From assembly GCA_025924775.1 (NCBI GenBank), contig JAICHS010000002.1, positions 1-43,653 on the forward strand: a stretch of 43,653 nucleotides of DNA. The letters run 5' to 3'. The notes below the pieces were generated by a model. The model was not told the DNA's origin. It ran no database searches and saw only the letters and a program-made list of their open reading frames with translations. Shown here in pieces: positions 604 through 7,972 of this stretch. The stretch comes from Rhodanobacteraceae bacterium (GTDB lineage Bacteria > Pseudomonadota > Gammaproteobacteria > Xanthomonadales > Rhodanobacteraceae). Every line of letters starts with the position of its first letter. Position 1 is the first letter of the stretch. The position numbers and the translations under genes were made by a program.

Positions 604-1731
604 ATGCGCGAGGGGCACGAAATGCGGGCGGCGAAGTCGACGTGGCGCGAGGAATGGCCGCTGCCGGTCGCGCTGGCCACCCTGTTCGCGGGCTGGTGGC
701 TGAAGCCCGTATTTGCAACGGTTGATGCCGCCAATCTCGCGATCGGCGTCGCGTTCATCGCCTTTTTCACCGGCGCGCTGCTCGCGGCCATCCTGGCGAC
801 CCGGCACGCCGAACACCTCGCCGAGCGTTTCGGCGAGCCCTACGGCACGCTGATGTTGACGTTGTCCGCGATCTCGCTGGAGATCGCGACGGTCGTCACC
901 GTGATGCTGCACAACGCCGACAATCCCGCGTTCGGACGCGACACCATGTTTTCGGTGGTGATGATCGTCCTGAACGGCGTCATCGGCATCGCGCTGCTGG
1001 TGGGCGGCCTGCGCCACCACGAGCAGACCTACAACTTGCGCGGCGCCAAGGCCTACCTGAGCCTTTTGATCCCGCTGGCGACGCTGGCGCTGATCTGGCC
1101 GGATTTCACCATCACCACCGGCGAGGGCACGTTCTCGCTGGTCCAGAAGGTGTTCCTGCTGGTGATGTCCCTGCTGATGTACGCGGCGTTCATGGTGATC
1201 CAGACGCGCACCCACACCAGCTTCTTCGTCGCGGAAGGCGAGGCGATGCAACAGGCGCCCGCGCATCCCGAATCGACCCGCGGCTGGCCGTTCCACGCGA
1301 TCCTGCTGGTCGTGTACCTGGTGCTGGTGGTGCTGTTGGCCAAGCTGTTCGCGTTGCCGCTGGAAGCCAGCGTCGCACGGCTCGGGTTGCCGGCCGCACT
1401 CGCGGGCTTCGCGGTGGCGGTGCTGGTGCTGGCGCCGGAAGGCATCGCCGCGATCCGCGCAGCGCGTTACAACCAGATGCAGCGCGCGATGAACATCGGG
1501 CTGGGCACCGCGCTTTCGACGATCGCGCTGACCGTGCCGGCGATTTTGCTGATCGACCTGTTCCTTGGGCGCACGGCGGTGCTGGGCCTTTCGCCCGCCA
1601 ACATGATGATGCTGGTGCTGACCTTCGGCGTGTCGATCCTGACGCTGGGCAGTGGGCGCACCAACGCGATGCAGGGGCTGGTGCACCTGTTGCTGTTCCT
1701 TGCCTACTTCGTGCTGTTCTTTTCGCCGTGA
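604..1731 (+). CDS. chaA: Calcium/sodium:proton antiporter, ChaA-like
   Basis: ORF 484..1731 with likely start MREGHEMRAAKSTW; multiple TM helices and CaCA-type repeats (GEPYGTLMLTLSAISLEIATVVTVML; VLAPEGIAAIRAA). Confidence 0.82.
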   Translation: MREGHEMRAAKSTWREEWPLPVALATLFAGWWLKPVFATVDAANLAIGVAFIAFFTGALLAAILATRHAEHLAERFGEPYGTLMLTLSAISLEIATVVTVMLHNADNPAFGRDTMFSVVMIVLNGVIGIALLVGGLRHHEQTYNLRGAKAYLSLLIPLATLALIWPDFTITTGEGTFSLVQKVFLLVMSLLMYAAFMVIQTRTHTSFFVAEGEAMQQAPAHPESTRGWPFHAILLVVYLVLVVLLAKLFALPLEASVARLGLPAALAGFAVAVLVLAPEGIAAIRAARYNQMQRAMNIGLGTALSTIALTVPAILLIDLFLGRTAVLGLSPANMMMLVLTFGVSILTLGSGRTNAMQGLVHLLLFLAYFVLFFSP

Positions 1732-1750
1732 CCCGGCGCGGTGGAAACCG

Positions 1751-2173
1751 ATGATGGCCCTCTGGCTGAAAGCCTTCCACATCATTGGCGTGGTCACCTG
1801 GTTCGCCGGGTTGTTCTACCTGCCGCGATTGTTCGTGTACCACGCGGAGGCCACCGAGCCCGCGGTCCGCGAGCGGCTGCAGACCATGGAGCGCCGCCTG
1901 CTGGTGATGACCCACATCGGCGGCGCGCTCGCGCTTGCGTTCGGCATCGCCACGCTGGCGGCCGAACCGTTCTACCTCAAGGCCGGCTGGCTGCACGTGA
2001 AGCTGGCGCTGGTGTTGTTGCTGGTGCTCTACCACGGCCTACTGGTGAAGCTGGTACGTGATTTCGCGCACGATCGTTGCGGCTGGTCGTCGCGGGCGCT
2101 GCGCGGATTCAACGAGATACCCAGCGTGCTGCTGCTGGCGATCGTGATCCTGGCCGTAGTCAAACCATTTTGA
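1751..2173 (+). CDS. hemJ: HemJ-like/CopD-type membrane protein (protoporphyrinogen oxidase family)
   Basis: MMALWLKAFHIIGVVTWFAGLFYLPRLFVYHAEA... characteristic N-terminus; 4 TM. Confidence 0.82.
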   Translation: MMALWLKAFHIIGVVTWFAGLFYLPRLFVYHAEATEPAVRERLQTMERRLLVMTHIGGALALAFGIATLAAEPFYLKAGWLHVKLALVLLLVLYHGLLVKLVRDFAHDRCGWSSRALRGFNEIPSVLLLAIVILAVVKPF

Positions 2174-2185
2174 ACGCGATTGATT

Positions 2186-2216
2186 CGTGGCCGCCGCTGC
2201 ACGGCGCGGCGGTTCG
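2186..2216. terminator. Possible hairpin after hemJ-like gene
   Basis: gtggCCGCCGCtgcacgGCGCGGCGGttcgcc GC-rich inverted repeat 3' of stop; no clear T-tract. Confidence 0.35.
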
Positions 2217-2376
2217 CCGGCCTGCACCAATCGCCGCGCCCACGCTGCGGTGTGACGGCAGGCAACCGCCCGGATGTACCCTGATTTTCCGCAACGGCTG
2301 CTGCGAGCAAACGCTGGTCTGGACACTCCTGCGCCACGCCGGCTTGCTATAGTTTTGTCCGAGCGGGGGAATCATC

Positions 2377-4917
2377 TTGATGACATCGCAATCACCCAAG
2401 CAGGATCCGGGGCCGGAGCTGCAGGAGGCCTTTCGCCGGCACCTGCCGCAGCGCCTGCGCACGTTGTTGCGGCGCACCCGGGCGCAGTGCCGGGGTGGCT
2501 GGGACTGCAACGTGTTGCGCGCGCTGCACGGCGAGATCGCGATGCTGGCCGGGGCTTGCGGCCGCCATGGCATGCTGGAAACCGGCGAGCGCCTGCTGGC
2601 GCTGGAGTCGGCGCTGGCGCTGCCGATGGCCAGGCACGACGTGCCCGACGCGGTCACTTCCGCCCGCATTGACAGCTTGCTGGACAGTTTGCGCCCGCAT
2701 TTGCAGGACGCCGCGCCGGGTTTGGCACCGGTGGGGCGGGGACTGGGGGTGACGCCAGTGGGCGCGCACGATCCATTCCCGCGTTGCGAGGTGCCGCCGG
2801 ACCGCTACTGGCTGCGGCTTGGCATCGCCGACATCCCCGGAGCCGCCACGGGTGCGGCCAACCAGTCCGAGCCGGTGGCTGCGGACCCACCCGCGCCGGT
2901 GGATGCGCCGCACGGTCCATGCGTGCGCATCGTCAACGACGACGATCCCGTGGTCACCCAATTGCTGTTGCGGCTGGAGCAGCAAGGTTGCGACGTGGCG
3001 TTGGTCGAGCGCATCGACGATCTGGCCGAACTGCTGCCGCGCACGCCGCCCGACCTCGCCATCGTGGTTGCGGATGCGCACACCGTGCTCGCTGCGTTGG
3101 CCGCGGCGTTGCAGGCTGCCCGGCACGATCCGGCGCGGCAGCGCACGCGCCTGTTGATGCTGCTGCAAGGGGCCACCGTCGAATTGCAGTTGCGCGCACT
3201 GCGCGCCGGGGCTGATCGTTGCGTTGCGCTGCCGGCCACGCCGGAGGACGTGGTCCGCGCGGCACTGGAGCTGGCCAGCGTGGAGCACGCGAGCGCGTTT
3301 CGGGTCCTGATCGTCGATGACGACGCGGCGCAGGCGTTGTTCGCGCAGGCCATTCTGCGCCACGCCGGCATGGAAACCCTGATCCTGGGCGAGTCGCTGG
3401 CGGTGCTGGACGAGCTGGACCGGTTCCGGCCCGACCTGTTGCTGCTGGACCTCAACATGCCCGATTGCGACGGCTTCGAGCTGACCGCGTTGATCCGCGA
3501 GCGCGACGGCTACCTCAACACGCCGATCGTGTTCCTGTCGGGCGACCAGGACGAAGAGCGCCAATTTGCCGCGCTGGACGCCGGTGGCGACGACTTCCTG
3601 ATCAAGCCGATTCGGCCCATGCACCTGGTTGCCGCGGTGACCAACCGCGTGCGGCGCGCGCGGCTGGCGGCTGCGCGCATGCGGCAGCGGCGCCGGCGCG
3701 ATGCCGGCACTGGCCTCAACGAGCGCGCGCAGGTGCTGGATGCCGTGTCCGAGCACCTTGCCGCCAGCGGCAGCCGGGCGGCGCCAGGTGGCTTGCTCGC
3801 GGTCGAAGTGGACGATGCCCCCGCCTTGCGCGGCTACCTCGGCCTGGCGGCGTTCGACCAGTTGCTCGGTCAGGTCGGCGCTTTCATCGCGGGCCACGTA
3901 CGCGCGGGCTGCATGACCGCGCGCCATGGCAACTCGGGGTATCTGGTGTTTGCCCCCACCCACGACGAAGCCGGACTGGCGACGCTGGCGGGTGAGCTGC
4001 TCGAGGCCGCGCGGGAATCACGCTTTGGCGCGCAGGCGTCCGCGGTACGCCTGGTGTGTGCCGTGTGCGCGTTCGACGCGTCCAGCAGCGAAACGGCGCA
4101 GGCGCTGGCGGCGGTGGAACGCACCCTGGCCTGGGCGCGGACACACCCCGAGCAGGTTGCGCTCCATTCGCGGCTGGGCGCGGATCCCGACTCGATCACC
4201 CAGCGCCTAGCCACGGCGCTGGCCACCGAGTCCTTCGGGCTGGCCTTCCAGCCGGTCATTCCGATCCACGGCGCGGCCGATCCGCAGTACCAGGCACTGC
4301 TGCGCCTGCGCACCGGTACCCGCGAATACGTGGCCGCCGAGCTGGTGCCCGTGGCCGTCCGCACCGGGACGATCGCCGCCATCGATGCGTGGGTGGTGCG
4401 GCGTTGTGCCGCGATCCTGGCCGAGCGCCGGCGCGAGGGTGATCCGGTGCACCTGTTCGCCAGCCAGTCGCTGACCGGCTGGCGCGACGCCGGACGGGTG
4501 GCTGAACTGCGCGCGGCGCTGGCGGAAGCGGGCGTCCAGGCCGATTCGCTGGTGCTGGAATTCCAGGCCGAGGAGGTGCGCCACGACATGCGCACGCTGA
4601 TCGGGCTGGCGCCGGCCTTGCGCGCCGCCGACGTGCGCCTGTCGCTGGCCGGGGCGGACGCCGACGCGGTTGCGGCGGGCTGGATCGAGCACCTGCCGCT
4701 GGACTACGTGAAACTGGCGGCCGCGCTCGATCCTGCAGTTGCAGCGAGCGTGGTGGACGCCGCGCATGCGCGTGGCCTGCGGGTGGTGGCGCCGTGCGTG
4801 GAAACGCTGGCGCAGGTCGAGCGCCTGCGGGAAATCCGCGTCGACCTTTTGCAGGGCAATTACTTCCGTCCGCCCGCGCGTGAGCTGGGCGCCGCGCTAC
4901 CACCGGCGGAGGCCTGA
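2377..4917 (+). CDS. Multi-domain response-regulator protein: Hpt-like / pseudo-REC / REC / degenerate GGDEF / degenerate EAL
   Basis: 846 aa. Canonical REC FRVLIVDDD...LLLLDLNMPDCDG...VFLSGD...FLIKPIRP; upstream pseudo-REC VRIVNDDDP...DLAIVVADAH...CVALPATP; C-terminal EAL-like fold FQPVIPIH...YQALLRLR...LVLEFQAEE...LDYVKL...LLQGNYFRPP with missing catalytic residues. Confidence 0.85.
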   Translation: MMTSQSPKQDPGPELQEAFRRHLPQRLRTLLRRTRAQCRGGWDCNVLRALHGEIAMLAGACGRHGMLETGERLLALESALALPMARHDVPDAVTSARIDSLLDSLRPHLQDAAPGLAPVGRGLGVTPVGAHDPFPRCEVPPDRYWLRLGIADIPGAATGAANQSEPVAADPPAPVDAPHGPCVRIVNDDDPVVTQLLLRLEQQGCDVALVERIDDLAELLPRTPPDLAIVVADAHTVLAALAAALQAARHDPARQRTRLLMLLQGATVELQLRALRAGADRCVALPATPEDVVRAALELASVEHASAFRVLIVDDDAAQALFAQAILRHAGMETLILGESLAVLDELDRFRPDLLLLDLNMPDCDGFELTALIRERDGYLNTPIVFLSGDQDEERQFAALDAGGDDFLIKPIRPMHLVAAVTNRVRRARLAAARMRQRRRRDAGTGLNERAQVLDAVSEHLAASGSRAAPGGLLAVEVDDAPALRGYLGLAAFDQLLGQVGAFIAGHVRAGCMTARHGNSGYLVFAPTHDEAGLATLAGELLEAARESRFGAQASAVRLVCAVCAFDASSSETAQALAAVERTLAWARTHPEQVALHSRLGADPDSITQRLATALATESFGLAFQPVIPIHGAADPQYQALLRLRTGTREYVAAELVPVAVRTGTIAAIDAWVVRRCAAILAERRREGDPVHLFASQSLTGWRDAGRVAELRAALAEAGVQADSLVLEFQAEEVRHDMRTLIGLAPALRAADVRLSLAGADADAVAAGWIEHLPLDYVKLAAALDPAVAASVVDAAHARGLRVVAPCVETLAQVERLREIRVDLLQGNYFRPPARELGAALPPAEA

Positions 4918-4919
4918 CC

Positions 4920-7235
4920 TTGGCCACGCCGCGTTCCGGATTGCTTGCCGCCTGGCCCCGCTGGGTTGCCAGCGCCGCGCTGGTGACGGCCGGCGCATTG
5001 GGCGTGCTGTGGGTGCCGGCGCCCCAGGTGTTCGCGGTGTGGCTGGCGTTGGGGGTGGCGCTGGTGTGCGTATGGGTCGTGCGCGGGGCGCCTTCGGCCG
5101 AGTCCGAGCGCGTCAACATGGCGCCGCAGGTGCCCGACCCGGTCGATGTCGCGATGCGCACGCGGCTGGCATCGGCACAATCGGAACTGTCCTCGCTGCG
5201 CGGGGTGCAGCGCGAGTTGCTGGCGGCCAAGCAGGGTGCGGAGGCCGCGATGCTGGCCAAGAGCGAATTCCTGGCCAGCATGAGCCACGAGATCCGCACG
5301 CCGTTGAACGGCATCCTGCCGCTGCTCGACATCGTGCTGGGCACCGACCTGTCGCCGGTGCAGCGCGAATACCTGGTGACGGCCAATGCCTCCGCCAAGG
5401 AATTGCTGCGCATCGTCGACGACATCCTCGACTACTCGAAGGCCGAGGCCGGCAAGCTCGTCATCGAGTCGGTCAGCATCAACATCCGCGACCTGGTGGA
5501 CAGCGTCAAGCGGCTGCTGGAAAAGCCCGCCGAAGCCAAGGGCCTGGCCATGCGCGCGGTGGTGGACGCCGATGTGCGGCCGGTGGTGCGCGGCGATCCG
5601 ATGCGGGTGCGCCAGATCCTCACCAACCTGATGAGCAACGCCATCAAGTTCACCCAGCGCGGCGGCGTGTCGGTGCGGGTCAGCAAGCGCAACGACACCG
5701 AAACGCAGCACGAGCTGCTGTTCGCGGTGCGCGATACCGGCATCGGTCTTGCGGCCGATGCGGCGGCGCGGCTGTTCCAGCCGTTCACGCAAGCGGACGC
5801 GTCGGTGACGCGGCGCTATGGCGGCACTGGCCTCGGGCTGACCATCTGCAAAAAGCTTGTGGACCTGATGGGCGGCCGCATCGGGGTGCGCTCCGAGCCG
5901 GGCCGCGGCTCGGTGTTCTGGTTCACGGTGCCGTTTGAAAAGGCGCCCGGCGACATCGCGGGCGGGCACCGCGGTCTGGCGGGTGCGCGGACCCTGCTGG
6001 TGGCCAGCCCGCAGCGCGCGCAGGCCATCATGCCGGTGCTGGCGACGCTGGAACTCGATATCACGCACATGGCCGACGCGGCGGCTGCGCTGGCGCGCGT
6101 GCGCCAGGCCGCGCCGCTGGGGGACAGTTTCAACTACGAGTTGCTGGTGGTGGATGCCACCAGCGCGATCGGAGACGCGTCTGCATTGCTGCAAGGCGTG
6201 CTGCACGACCATCAACTGGACAAGCTGCGGCTGCTGGCGCTGGGGCTTGCCGCTGCACCTGCTGCGCGGGTCCATGCCACCGCCGCGCGCGTGGATGACG
6301 CGGTCCTGCGCCAGACCGTGCGCAACGCGTTTGGCCTGGGGCCTCCGGTGCGCACGCAGCCCGTGTTGGCGGCGCCGCTCATGCCGCCCATCGAGGAAGT
6401 CGACACCAGGCAGCCGCTGGCCGGCCGGGTACTGCTGGTCGAAGACCATCCAGTCAACCAGAAGGTCGCGCAAAAACTGCTGGAGCGCCTGGGCTTGACC
6501 GTGGAAGTTGCCGACAACGGCGAAATCGCGCTCGACAAGCTGCGCCAGCAGGACTACGCGATGGTGCTGATGGACTGCCAGATGCCGGTGCTCGACGGCT
6601 ACAGCGCGACCCGACGGCTGCGCGAAATCGAGAGTGCGCAAGGTGGGCCGCGCATGCCGGTCATCGCCATGACCGCGCATGCGATGTCGGGCGATCGCGA
6701 ACGCTGCCTGCAGGCGGGGATGGACGATTACCTGTCCAAGCCGCTGGACCGCCAGCTGTTGGCACAGACCTTGGCACGCTGGATGCAGCGTTCTCCGCAC
6801 GCCGCCGCGGCGGCTCCCGCGGCGCCCACCACGCCTGCCACCACCACCACTACCGCCACTACCGCTGCCCCTGCCATGACCACACCGCCGCCCCCGGACA
6901 CGCTCGACGCCGCCACGCTGGTTGACCTGGAAGACATCATGGGCGACGAACTGGTCACGCTGGTCGATGCCTACCTGAGCGATGGCGATACGCGCATGCA
7001 GAACCTGCACGAAGCCGCCGCGCGGGGCGACAGCGTCGAAGTGGGCAAGCTTGCACACTCGCTGAAATCATCCAGCGCCAACCTGGGCGCGATGCCGTTG
7101 TCCACGCGTGCACGCCAGGTCGAAGAAGCCGCGCGCAACGGCACGCTGGCCAATCCCGCCGACAGCGTGGCCGCACTCGAGAAGTTGTATGCCAACGCCG
7201 CGGCGGCGCTGCGGCAGCGCTACAACCGGACGTAA
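4920..7235 (+). CDS. Hybrid sensor histidine kinase (2 TM, HisKA, HATPase_c, pseudo-REC, REC, Hpt)
   Basis: TTG start 2 nt after the upstream stop; [16 protein letters not shown]-box; [54 protein letters not shown]...[11 protein letters not shown]...YLSKPL; Hpt [14 protein letters not shown]. Confidence 0.92.
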
Positions 7236-7294
7236 GCGTTTCGCGCGCTTCGCGCGCGATCGCGCGCCCATGAAAAGCCCCACAACGCGCGGTT

Positions 7295-7318
7295 CGTAGG
7301 GCCAGCCTGCTGGCGACC
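7295..7318. repeat. REP-like element
   Basis: GTAGGGCCAGCCTGCTGGCGACCC resembles the GTAGGAGCG-n-C(G)CGACC REP form also seen at 35407-35430. Confidence 0.5.
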
Positions 7319-7453
7319 CGCATCCTCGCAGCCGGTTCATTCATGGCCCGCTTTCGCAGGGCCGGTGACAACCCGCCGGTTATGCAGCACCTGACGGGAC
7401 GCACGGCACGGCTCCCCCGTGCGTTGCAACCGCGCGCTCAAGGGCGGACGGCT

Positions 7454-7972
7454 TCACTCCGCTTGGGCAAAGCGCACGGCTTCGGAGGGCAGCGACCGCA
7501 CGCGGCCTGCCTGCGCCCGAAAATTCCGCAAGATCCGGTTGTGGTGACGCACGATTTGTTCGCCGGAGAGGTATTCATGGTCGACCGTTGTGTGTGCGTC
7601 GCTTGCCAGTTGCACGTCGTAGCCAAGTGACGCAGCCCGCCGGCAGGTGGTGTCGACGCAGTAGTCGGTCTGCATGCCGCACACCACGAGCCGCGTGATG
7701 GCCCGCTCGCGCAGCAGCGCATGCAGCTCCGTCCCGAGGAAGGCGTCGCAGTAGTCCTTGTCGACGTGCAGATCGGCTGGCAGTTGCGGAAGGCTTGCAT
7801 CCAGCGTTCCGTCCGGCTCCACGCGCCGGTCGCGGATGTATACCACCGTGGCACCCGACTGCCTTGCGTTTGCGATCAGGCGCTTGACGCTGTCAAGGAA
7901 CCCCTGTGCGTTCCAGGGACCCTCATCCAGCAGGCTGCGCTGGACATCGATGATCAACAGGGCGGTTGCCAT
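7454..7972 (-). CDS. Isochorismatase-like cysteine hydrolase
   Basis: MATALLIIDVQRSLLDEG...VVYIRDRR...HVDKDYCDAFLGTEL...VVCGMQTDYCVDTTCRRA; D-K-C triad present. Confidence 0.88.
   Translation of the reverse strand: MATALLIIDVQRSLLDEGPWNAQGFLDSVKRLIANARQSGATVVYIRDRRVEPDGTLDASLPQLPADLHVDKDYCDAFLGTELHALLRERAITRLVVCGMQTDYCVDTTCRRAASLGYDVQLASDAHTTVDHEYLSGEQIVRHHNRILRNFRAQAGRVRSLPSEAVRFAQAE

Follow-up and report, generated by a model that had tools for sequence, protein, structure and literature searches.

A probable c-di-GMP receptor with a single intact receiver among degenerate signalling domains in Rhodanobacteraceae and related Lysobacterales

The window, a 43,653-nucleotide stretch of DNA from a Rhodanobacteraceae bacterium, carries a gene for a five-domain response regulator that, judging from its sequence and those of its relatives, is probably a non-enzymatic c-di-GMP receptor gated by a kinase, a sister of FimX yet distinct from it. 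A sequence-only reading had proposed a phosphorylation-gated, non-enzymatic effector of the c-di-GMP type in which four of the five modules lack catalytic or phosphate-carrying residues. Motif columns and alignment bear out the loss in these four modules, and every substitution listed in that reading is present in the target protein when its sequence is set against an ortholog alignment. The predicted effector function is supported by the family-wide loss of catalytic residues together with an invariant pocket and second receiver (REC2), by a hybrid kinase that is co-retained with intact REC2, and by a syntenic short ortholog type that matches XOC_4190, a protein that is inactive yet binds c-di-GMP (PMC4823724).

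The open frame (2377-4917, forward strand) corresponds to 846 amino acids if TTG 2377 is the start codon and to 845 if ATG 2380 is. The latter is the likely start, because the initial methionines of orthologs align there, and residues of the target protein are numbered from it (Table 1). Pfam recognizes REC at residues 309-420 and EAL at 608-832 (5.7e-31) with strong scores, and leaves a GGDEF trace just under the cut-off. An AlphaFold model built from 41 orthologs contains a four-helix bundle (residues 11-103), REC1, REC2, GGDEF and EAL in that order, with a mean pLDDT of 85 and a pTM of 0.46, the latter being so low that the arrangement of the domains relative to each other is unreliable. 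No promoter-like site was found in positions 2100-7500.

Table 1. Positions in the window of the receptor candidate, its domains and diagnostic codons, and the flanking genes.
Feature	Position	Strand	Basis or remark
UPF0093 (HemJ-like) gene, upstream	1652..2173	+	Member of conserved synteny
Response regulator Hpt-like/REC1/REC2/GGDEF/EAL, 845 aa	2380..4917	+	TTG 2377 a possible start (846 aa)
Hpt-like four-helix bundle, residues 10-109	2407..2706	+	AlphaFold; Pfam Hpt in family N-termini
Ala54 codon at phospho-His position	2539..2541	+	Family alignment
PPxxYW linker motif, conserved	2794..2811	+	Shared with short Xanthomonadaceae orthologs without Hpt and REC1
REC1, degenerate receiver, residues 181-300	2920..3279	+	Model, alignment
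REC2, canonical receiver, residues 308-422	3301..3645	+	Pfam, alignment
REC2 phospho-acceptor Asp357 codon	3448..3450	+	Conserved 41/41
REC2 Lys409 codon	3604..3606	+	Conserved 41/41
Degenerate GGDEF domain, residues 441-598	3700..4173	+	Sub-cut-off Pfam trace, model
GNSGY where GG(D/E)EF expected	3928..3942	+	Motif columns
Degenerate EAL domain, FimX-like, residues 605-827	4192..4860	+	Pfam EAL 5.7e-31; TM 0.86 to 3hv8
QALLR replacing E-A-L-x-R; Arg642 in 40/41	4291..4305	+	Alignment
Asp669 codon, FimX D508 contact equivalent	4384..4386	+	41/41
Gln825-Gly826 codons, FimX Q673-G674 equivalents	4852..4857	+	41/41
Hybrid histidine kinase: HisKA, HATPase, receiver-like stretch, REC, Hpt	4920..7235	+	Pfam

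Of 15 genus-mates, 14 have an ortholog, and 53 of 101 genomes of Lysobacterales contain relatives at E <= 1e-30. Up to 41 target orthologs could be aligned, at 28-74% identity, and none of them has either an intact Hpt histidine or a full catalytic EAL set. Conservation of the degeneration pattern over this many orthologs means that it did not arise by chance.

REC2 is the sole canonical module, as had been read from the letters of the sequence. It has the acidic pair, acceptor Asp, Ser/Thr and Lys of an active receiver, the target keeping D314, D357 (codon 3448), S387 and K409; of these, D314, D357 and K409 are found in 41 of 41 orthologs. No other domain of the protein is as conserved as REC2 (entropy 0.88 versus 1.66-2.06 for the others). 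REC1 was said to lack both its acceptor Asp and its K-P motif, and the sequence indeed has Val230 at the acceptor position and A-L-P in place of K-P. Across the alignment the REC1 acceptor position is Asp in 14 of 41 members, most of them distant, and Val in many close ones, including the protein in the window. The GGDEF signature is missing as claimed, with GNSGY in the motif columns, and the GGDEF motif is absent from all 41 aligned members.

The N-terminal bundle is best read as a former Hpt domain that has lost the histidine that carries phosphate. AlphaFold folds the 159-residue N-terminus into a four-helix bundle with a pLDDT of roughly 90 or higher within the bundle, which carries the signatures W41-D42-x-N44 and L-A-G-x5-G. 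Alanine at the phospho-His position, here Ala54, had been noted from the sequence; among the 37 members with the domain, this position is Ala in 15, Gln in 15, Gly in 5, and Thr and Glu in one each, and His in none. The Hpt assignment was decided by a Pfam scan over all members and not by profile or PDB searches. In that scan Hpt matches 15 of 38 aligned family N-termini (best E 2.6e-5), well ahead of any other family, but the window protein itself gives no Hpt match. A sequence profile search of the PDB with the N-terminus retrieved nothing, and Foldseek with the N-terminal model returned weak, mixed matches, with CheA P1 and the RcsD (YojN) Hpt among the natural ones. It is unlikely that the domain is an unrelated four-helix bundle that never was an Hpt. 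That view draws on the profile comparison with the Hpt alignment of the partner kinase, which is not significant (P 0.11), and on the matches to the CheA P1 fold, all with E above 0.4; it is opposed by the Pfam matches and by the register of L-A-G-x5-G, which agrees with that of the intact Hpt (AHGLAGSGATFG) in paralogs from the same bacterial family, where the Hpt is followed by REC-REC and then by an intact GG(D/E)EF. Three paralogs that combine this intact Hpt with two receivers and an unaltered GG(D/E)EF (L145, L146 and L147) adjoin a large hybrid kinase, and may be related to the protein from which the dead form arose.

Degeneration of the EAL domain is as extensive as the sequence-only reading had listed it (QAL, DDFG, N-x-S and LE-x-x-E), each change being present. 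The motif residues have become Q638-A-L (codon 4291), S-Q-S for N-x-S, A-G for DD, Ala for the second Glu of LxxE and Pro for the Glu of AEG, and most metal ligands are lost. Four of ten canonical catalytic positions are kept in the window protein (E727, K778, E808 and Q825), and no EAL domain among the 41 aligned members keeps more than the seven of ten that are found in a side branch (L034, L036 and L082).

The closest sequence match of the EAL domain in the PDB is FimX of P. aeruginosa (4j40), and the modelled domain superimposes on the c-di-GMP-bound FimX EAL (3hv8) with a TM score of 0.86 and an rmsd of 2.0. Contacts to c-di-GMP in X. citri FimX include D508, E653, F654, Q673 and G674 (PMC7288161). 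The target residues equivalent to X. citri FimX contacts are Q624, L640-R642 (LLR), D669, Q825 and G826, and these are near invariant, with a mean entropy of 0.17 versus 1.85 across the EAL domain; none of 100,000 random position sets had an entropy as low. Loss of catalytic metal ligands, with four of ten catalytic positions kept, combined with retention of Q624, R642, D669, Q825 and G826 is a pattern that the target shares with degenerate-EAL receptors of c-di-GMP. Pocket conservation alone cannot tell a receptor and a weak enzyme apart, because the same residues are conserved in active EAL enzymes.

The hybrid kinase gene starts 2 bases past the stop codon of the target, and its catalytic residues are visible in the translation. 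No Pfam match precedes HisKA in this kinase, which in the genus of the target appears to have no recognizable sensor domain. The hybrid kinase adjoins the target in 44 of 44 loci that have an intact REC2 and a readable flank. At one locus (G031, L124) the target is cut to Hpt-REC-REC, with GGDEF-EAL lost and the REC2 Asp changed to Glu, and at two more (G040, L138; G057, L123) both receivers are lost. None of these three loci has the kinase, and bacterioferritin comes directly after the target in each. The kinase is likewise absent from 18 syntenic loci that have no target gene. Where GGDEF alone is lost (G044, L122), REC2, EAL and the kinase remain. Since the kinase is kept with intact REC2 and is missing at the 3 REC2-defective and the 18 target-less loci, it follows intact REC2, and it is the probable cognate kinase of the target. 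The co-loss is strong but not conclusive evidence, because only a handful of independent events underlie it (genera g17 and g26, together with at least one loss of the whole gene).

The gene order erpA-nudC, DUF6776, UPF0093 (HemJ-like), target, hybrid kinase, bacterioferritin, RppH is found order-wide with local variation. At the same locus, Xanthomonadaceae-type genomes encode a REC-GGDEF-EAL protein of ~610-660 amino acids with NDNS and with QVL or a close variant, and this synteny is the most telling result of the analysis. These short orthologs retain the PPxxYW linker and do not have Hpt and REC1. Some Xanthomonadaceae-type orthologs (L185-L188) keep the Hpt-like W-D signature with REC1 apparently absent, and appear from these features to be intermediate between the long and short forms. 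A tree of 41 rows places the target proteins in a single clade (support 100/99), with the short NDNS/QVL proteins nested inside it and FimX apart. Because the short forms are nested in the target clade, the PPxxYW linker is kept and some bundles are kept, the long form is probably ancestral, which suggests that it is the older one and was trimmed in Xanthomonadaceae.

By motifs, length, domain order and taxonomic family, the short orthologs are presumably of the XOC_4190 type. XOC_4190 is a protein of 656 amino acids with REC, NDNST and QVL, whose diguanylate cyclase and phosphodiesterase activities are undetectable and whose EAL domain binds c-di-GMP with a Kd of 4.59 uM; its deletion increases sliding motility and makes the bacterium less virulent on rice (PMC4823724). 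The homolog in Xoo, PXO_02944, is known as GEdpX9, and just one other Xoo GGDEF-EAL protein has a degenerate EAL domain (PMC6637768). The architecture, which the sequence-only reading did not recognize, is therefore not an orphan, as it belongs to a family that spans the order and has known short members. What stands of that claim concerns the long layout: literature searches by layout names found no paper describing all five domains. The target would thus be a protein of a kind already known, from a short form tested in Xanthomonas, in a full long layout not described in the literature searched.

Related genomes also contain paralogs (L158-L167) with an N-terminal helical part, two receivers, and GGDEF-like and EAL-like parts that are even more degenerate. 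The c-di-GMP pocket seems to have been lost from several of these, and many terminate in FDF. They may represent a radiation of inactive scaffolds in Lysobacterales.

If c-di-GMP binding were gone from the target, its EAL fold could serve protein contacts in a scaffold that responds to phosphorylation only. The L158-L167 paralogs, which appear to lack even the pocket Q-G and R, yet persist, are compatible with this idea, as is the replacement in the target of the residues equivalent to X. citri FimX E653 and F654. However, P. aeruginosa FimX, which likewise has Pro at a matching position of the alignment, binds c-di-GMP, the other pocket residues are near invariant in 41 orthologs, and the matching short ortholog binds the ligand; such a scaffold is an improbable account, if one to be taken seriously. 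Weak or conditional phosphodiesterase activity that uses non-canonical residues is considerably harder to credit. The four catalytic residues kept in the target EAL and the seven of ten positions held by the side branch speak for it, but in the window protein both Asp of DDFG are gone, as are the Asn, the Glu of EAL and another two Glu, and XOC_4190 showed no activity.

Decay in one lineage, as a pseudogene or a protein losing its function, has almost nothing to recommend it, even though single domains or the entire gene are lost in some relatives. In 14 genus-mates the frame is unbroken, REC2 is near invariant, and identical residues are missing throughout Lysobacterales. A loss that is family-wide is not the decay of one lineage, and this order-wide conservation rules the explanation out. 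Absence of an Hpt or EAL fold would also have spoken against the original proposal, and both folds were found. A non-enzymatic receptor gated by phosphorylation remains the probable reading.

Among known systems, the XOC_4190/PXO_02944 (GEdpX9) type is like the target in combining a canonical REC with degenerate GGDEF (NDNS) and EAL (QVL) domains. The short orthologs that match its motifs occupy the locus of the target and adjoin the same hybrid kinase, whereas the target has an additional N-terminal pseudo-Hpt and pseudo-REC1. FimX and Filp share with the target a degenerate GGDEF-EAL pair, the FimX-like EAL fold and a c-di-GMP pocket, but the front of FimX is REC-PAS and that of the target is Hpt-like-REC-REC, with no PAS by Pfam, and the target lies outside the separate FimX clade. 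That the target is simply the FimX of its genus is excluded by the tree, by the domain layout and by a separate FimX gene in 14 of 15 genus-mates. The target's own genome (G000, 448 contigs) yielded no FimX match at E 1e-40, which may reflect an assembly gap or a real loss. LapD, like the target, has an inactive GGDEF-EAL pair and is a c-di-GMP receptor. It sits in the membrane, has HAMP and periplasmic parts and lacks receivers; the target has no HAMP, periplasmic or membrane parts. PleD resembles the target in having tandem receivers, one of them degenerate, ahead of GGDEF, but it is an active cyclase and has neither Hpt nor EAL.

In the mechanism we propose, the adjacent hybrid kinase would phosphorylate REC2 at Asp357, and the degenerate EAL domain would bind c-di-GMP without hydrolyzing it, as others have observed for XOC_4190, the presumed short ortholog. 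The pseudo-Hpt, pseudo-REC1 and pseudo-GGDEF domains could act as structural, docking or dimerization modules that relay both inputs, and the output would be altered protein-protein contacts, perhaps with an effect on surface motility or type IV pilus motility like that of XOC_4190. A more speculative extension, which we offer tentatively, is that these pseudo-signalling proteins form an order-wide class of coincidence detectors, giving output only if REC2 has been phosphorylated by the paired kinase and EAL holds c-di-GMP. The pseudo-Hpt might then be a docking arm, and the pocket-less paralogs a radiation of signalling scaffolds in Lysobacterales.

A seemingly orphan multidomain protein may thus be viewed as the long form of a family of c-di-GMP receptors which in Xanthomonas influences both motility and plant disease, and gene co-loss names a probable kinase for this family. 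Relatives that have lost Hpt and REC1, GGDEF, both receivers, or EAL form a natural truncation series, which makes it testable how phosphorylation and c-di-GMP inputs would be combined in one inactive GGDEF-EAL protein.
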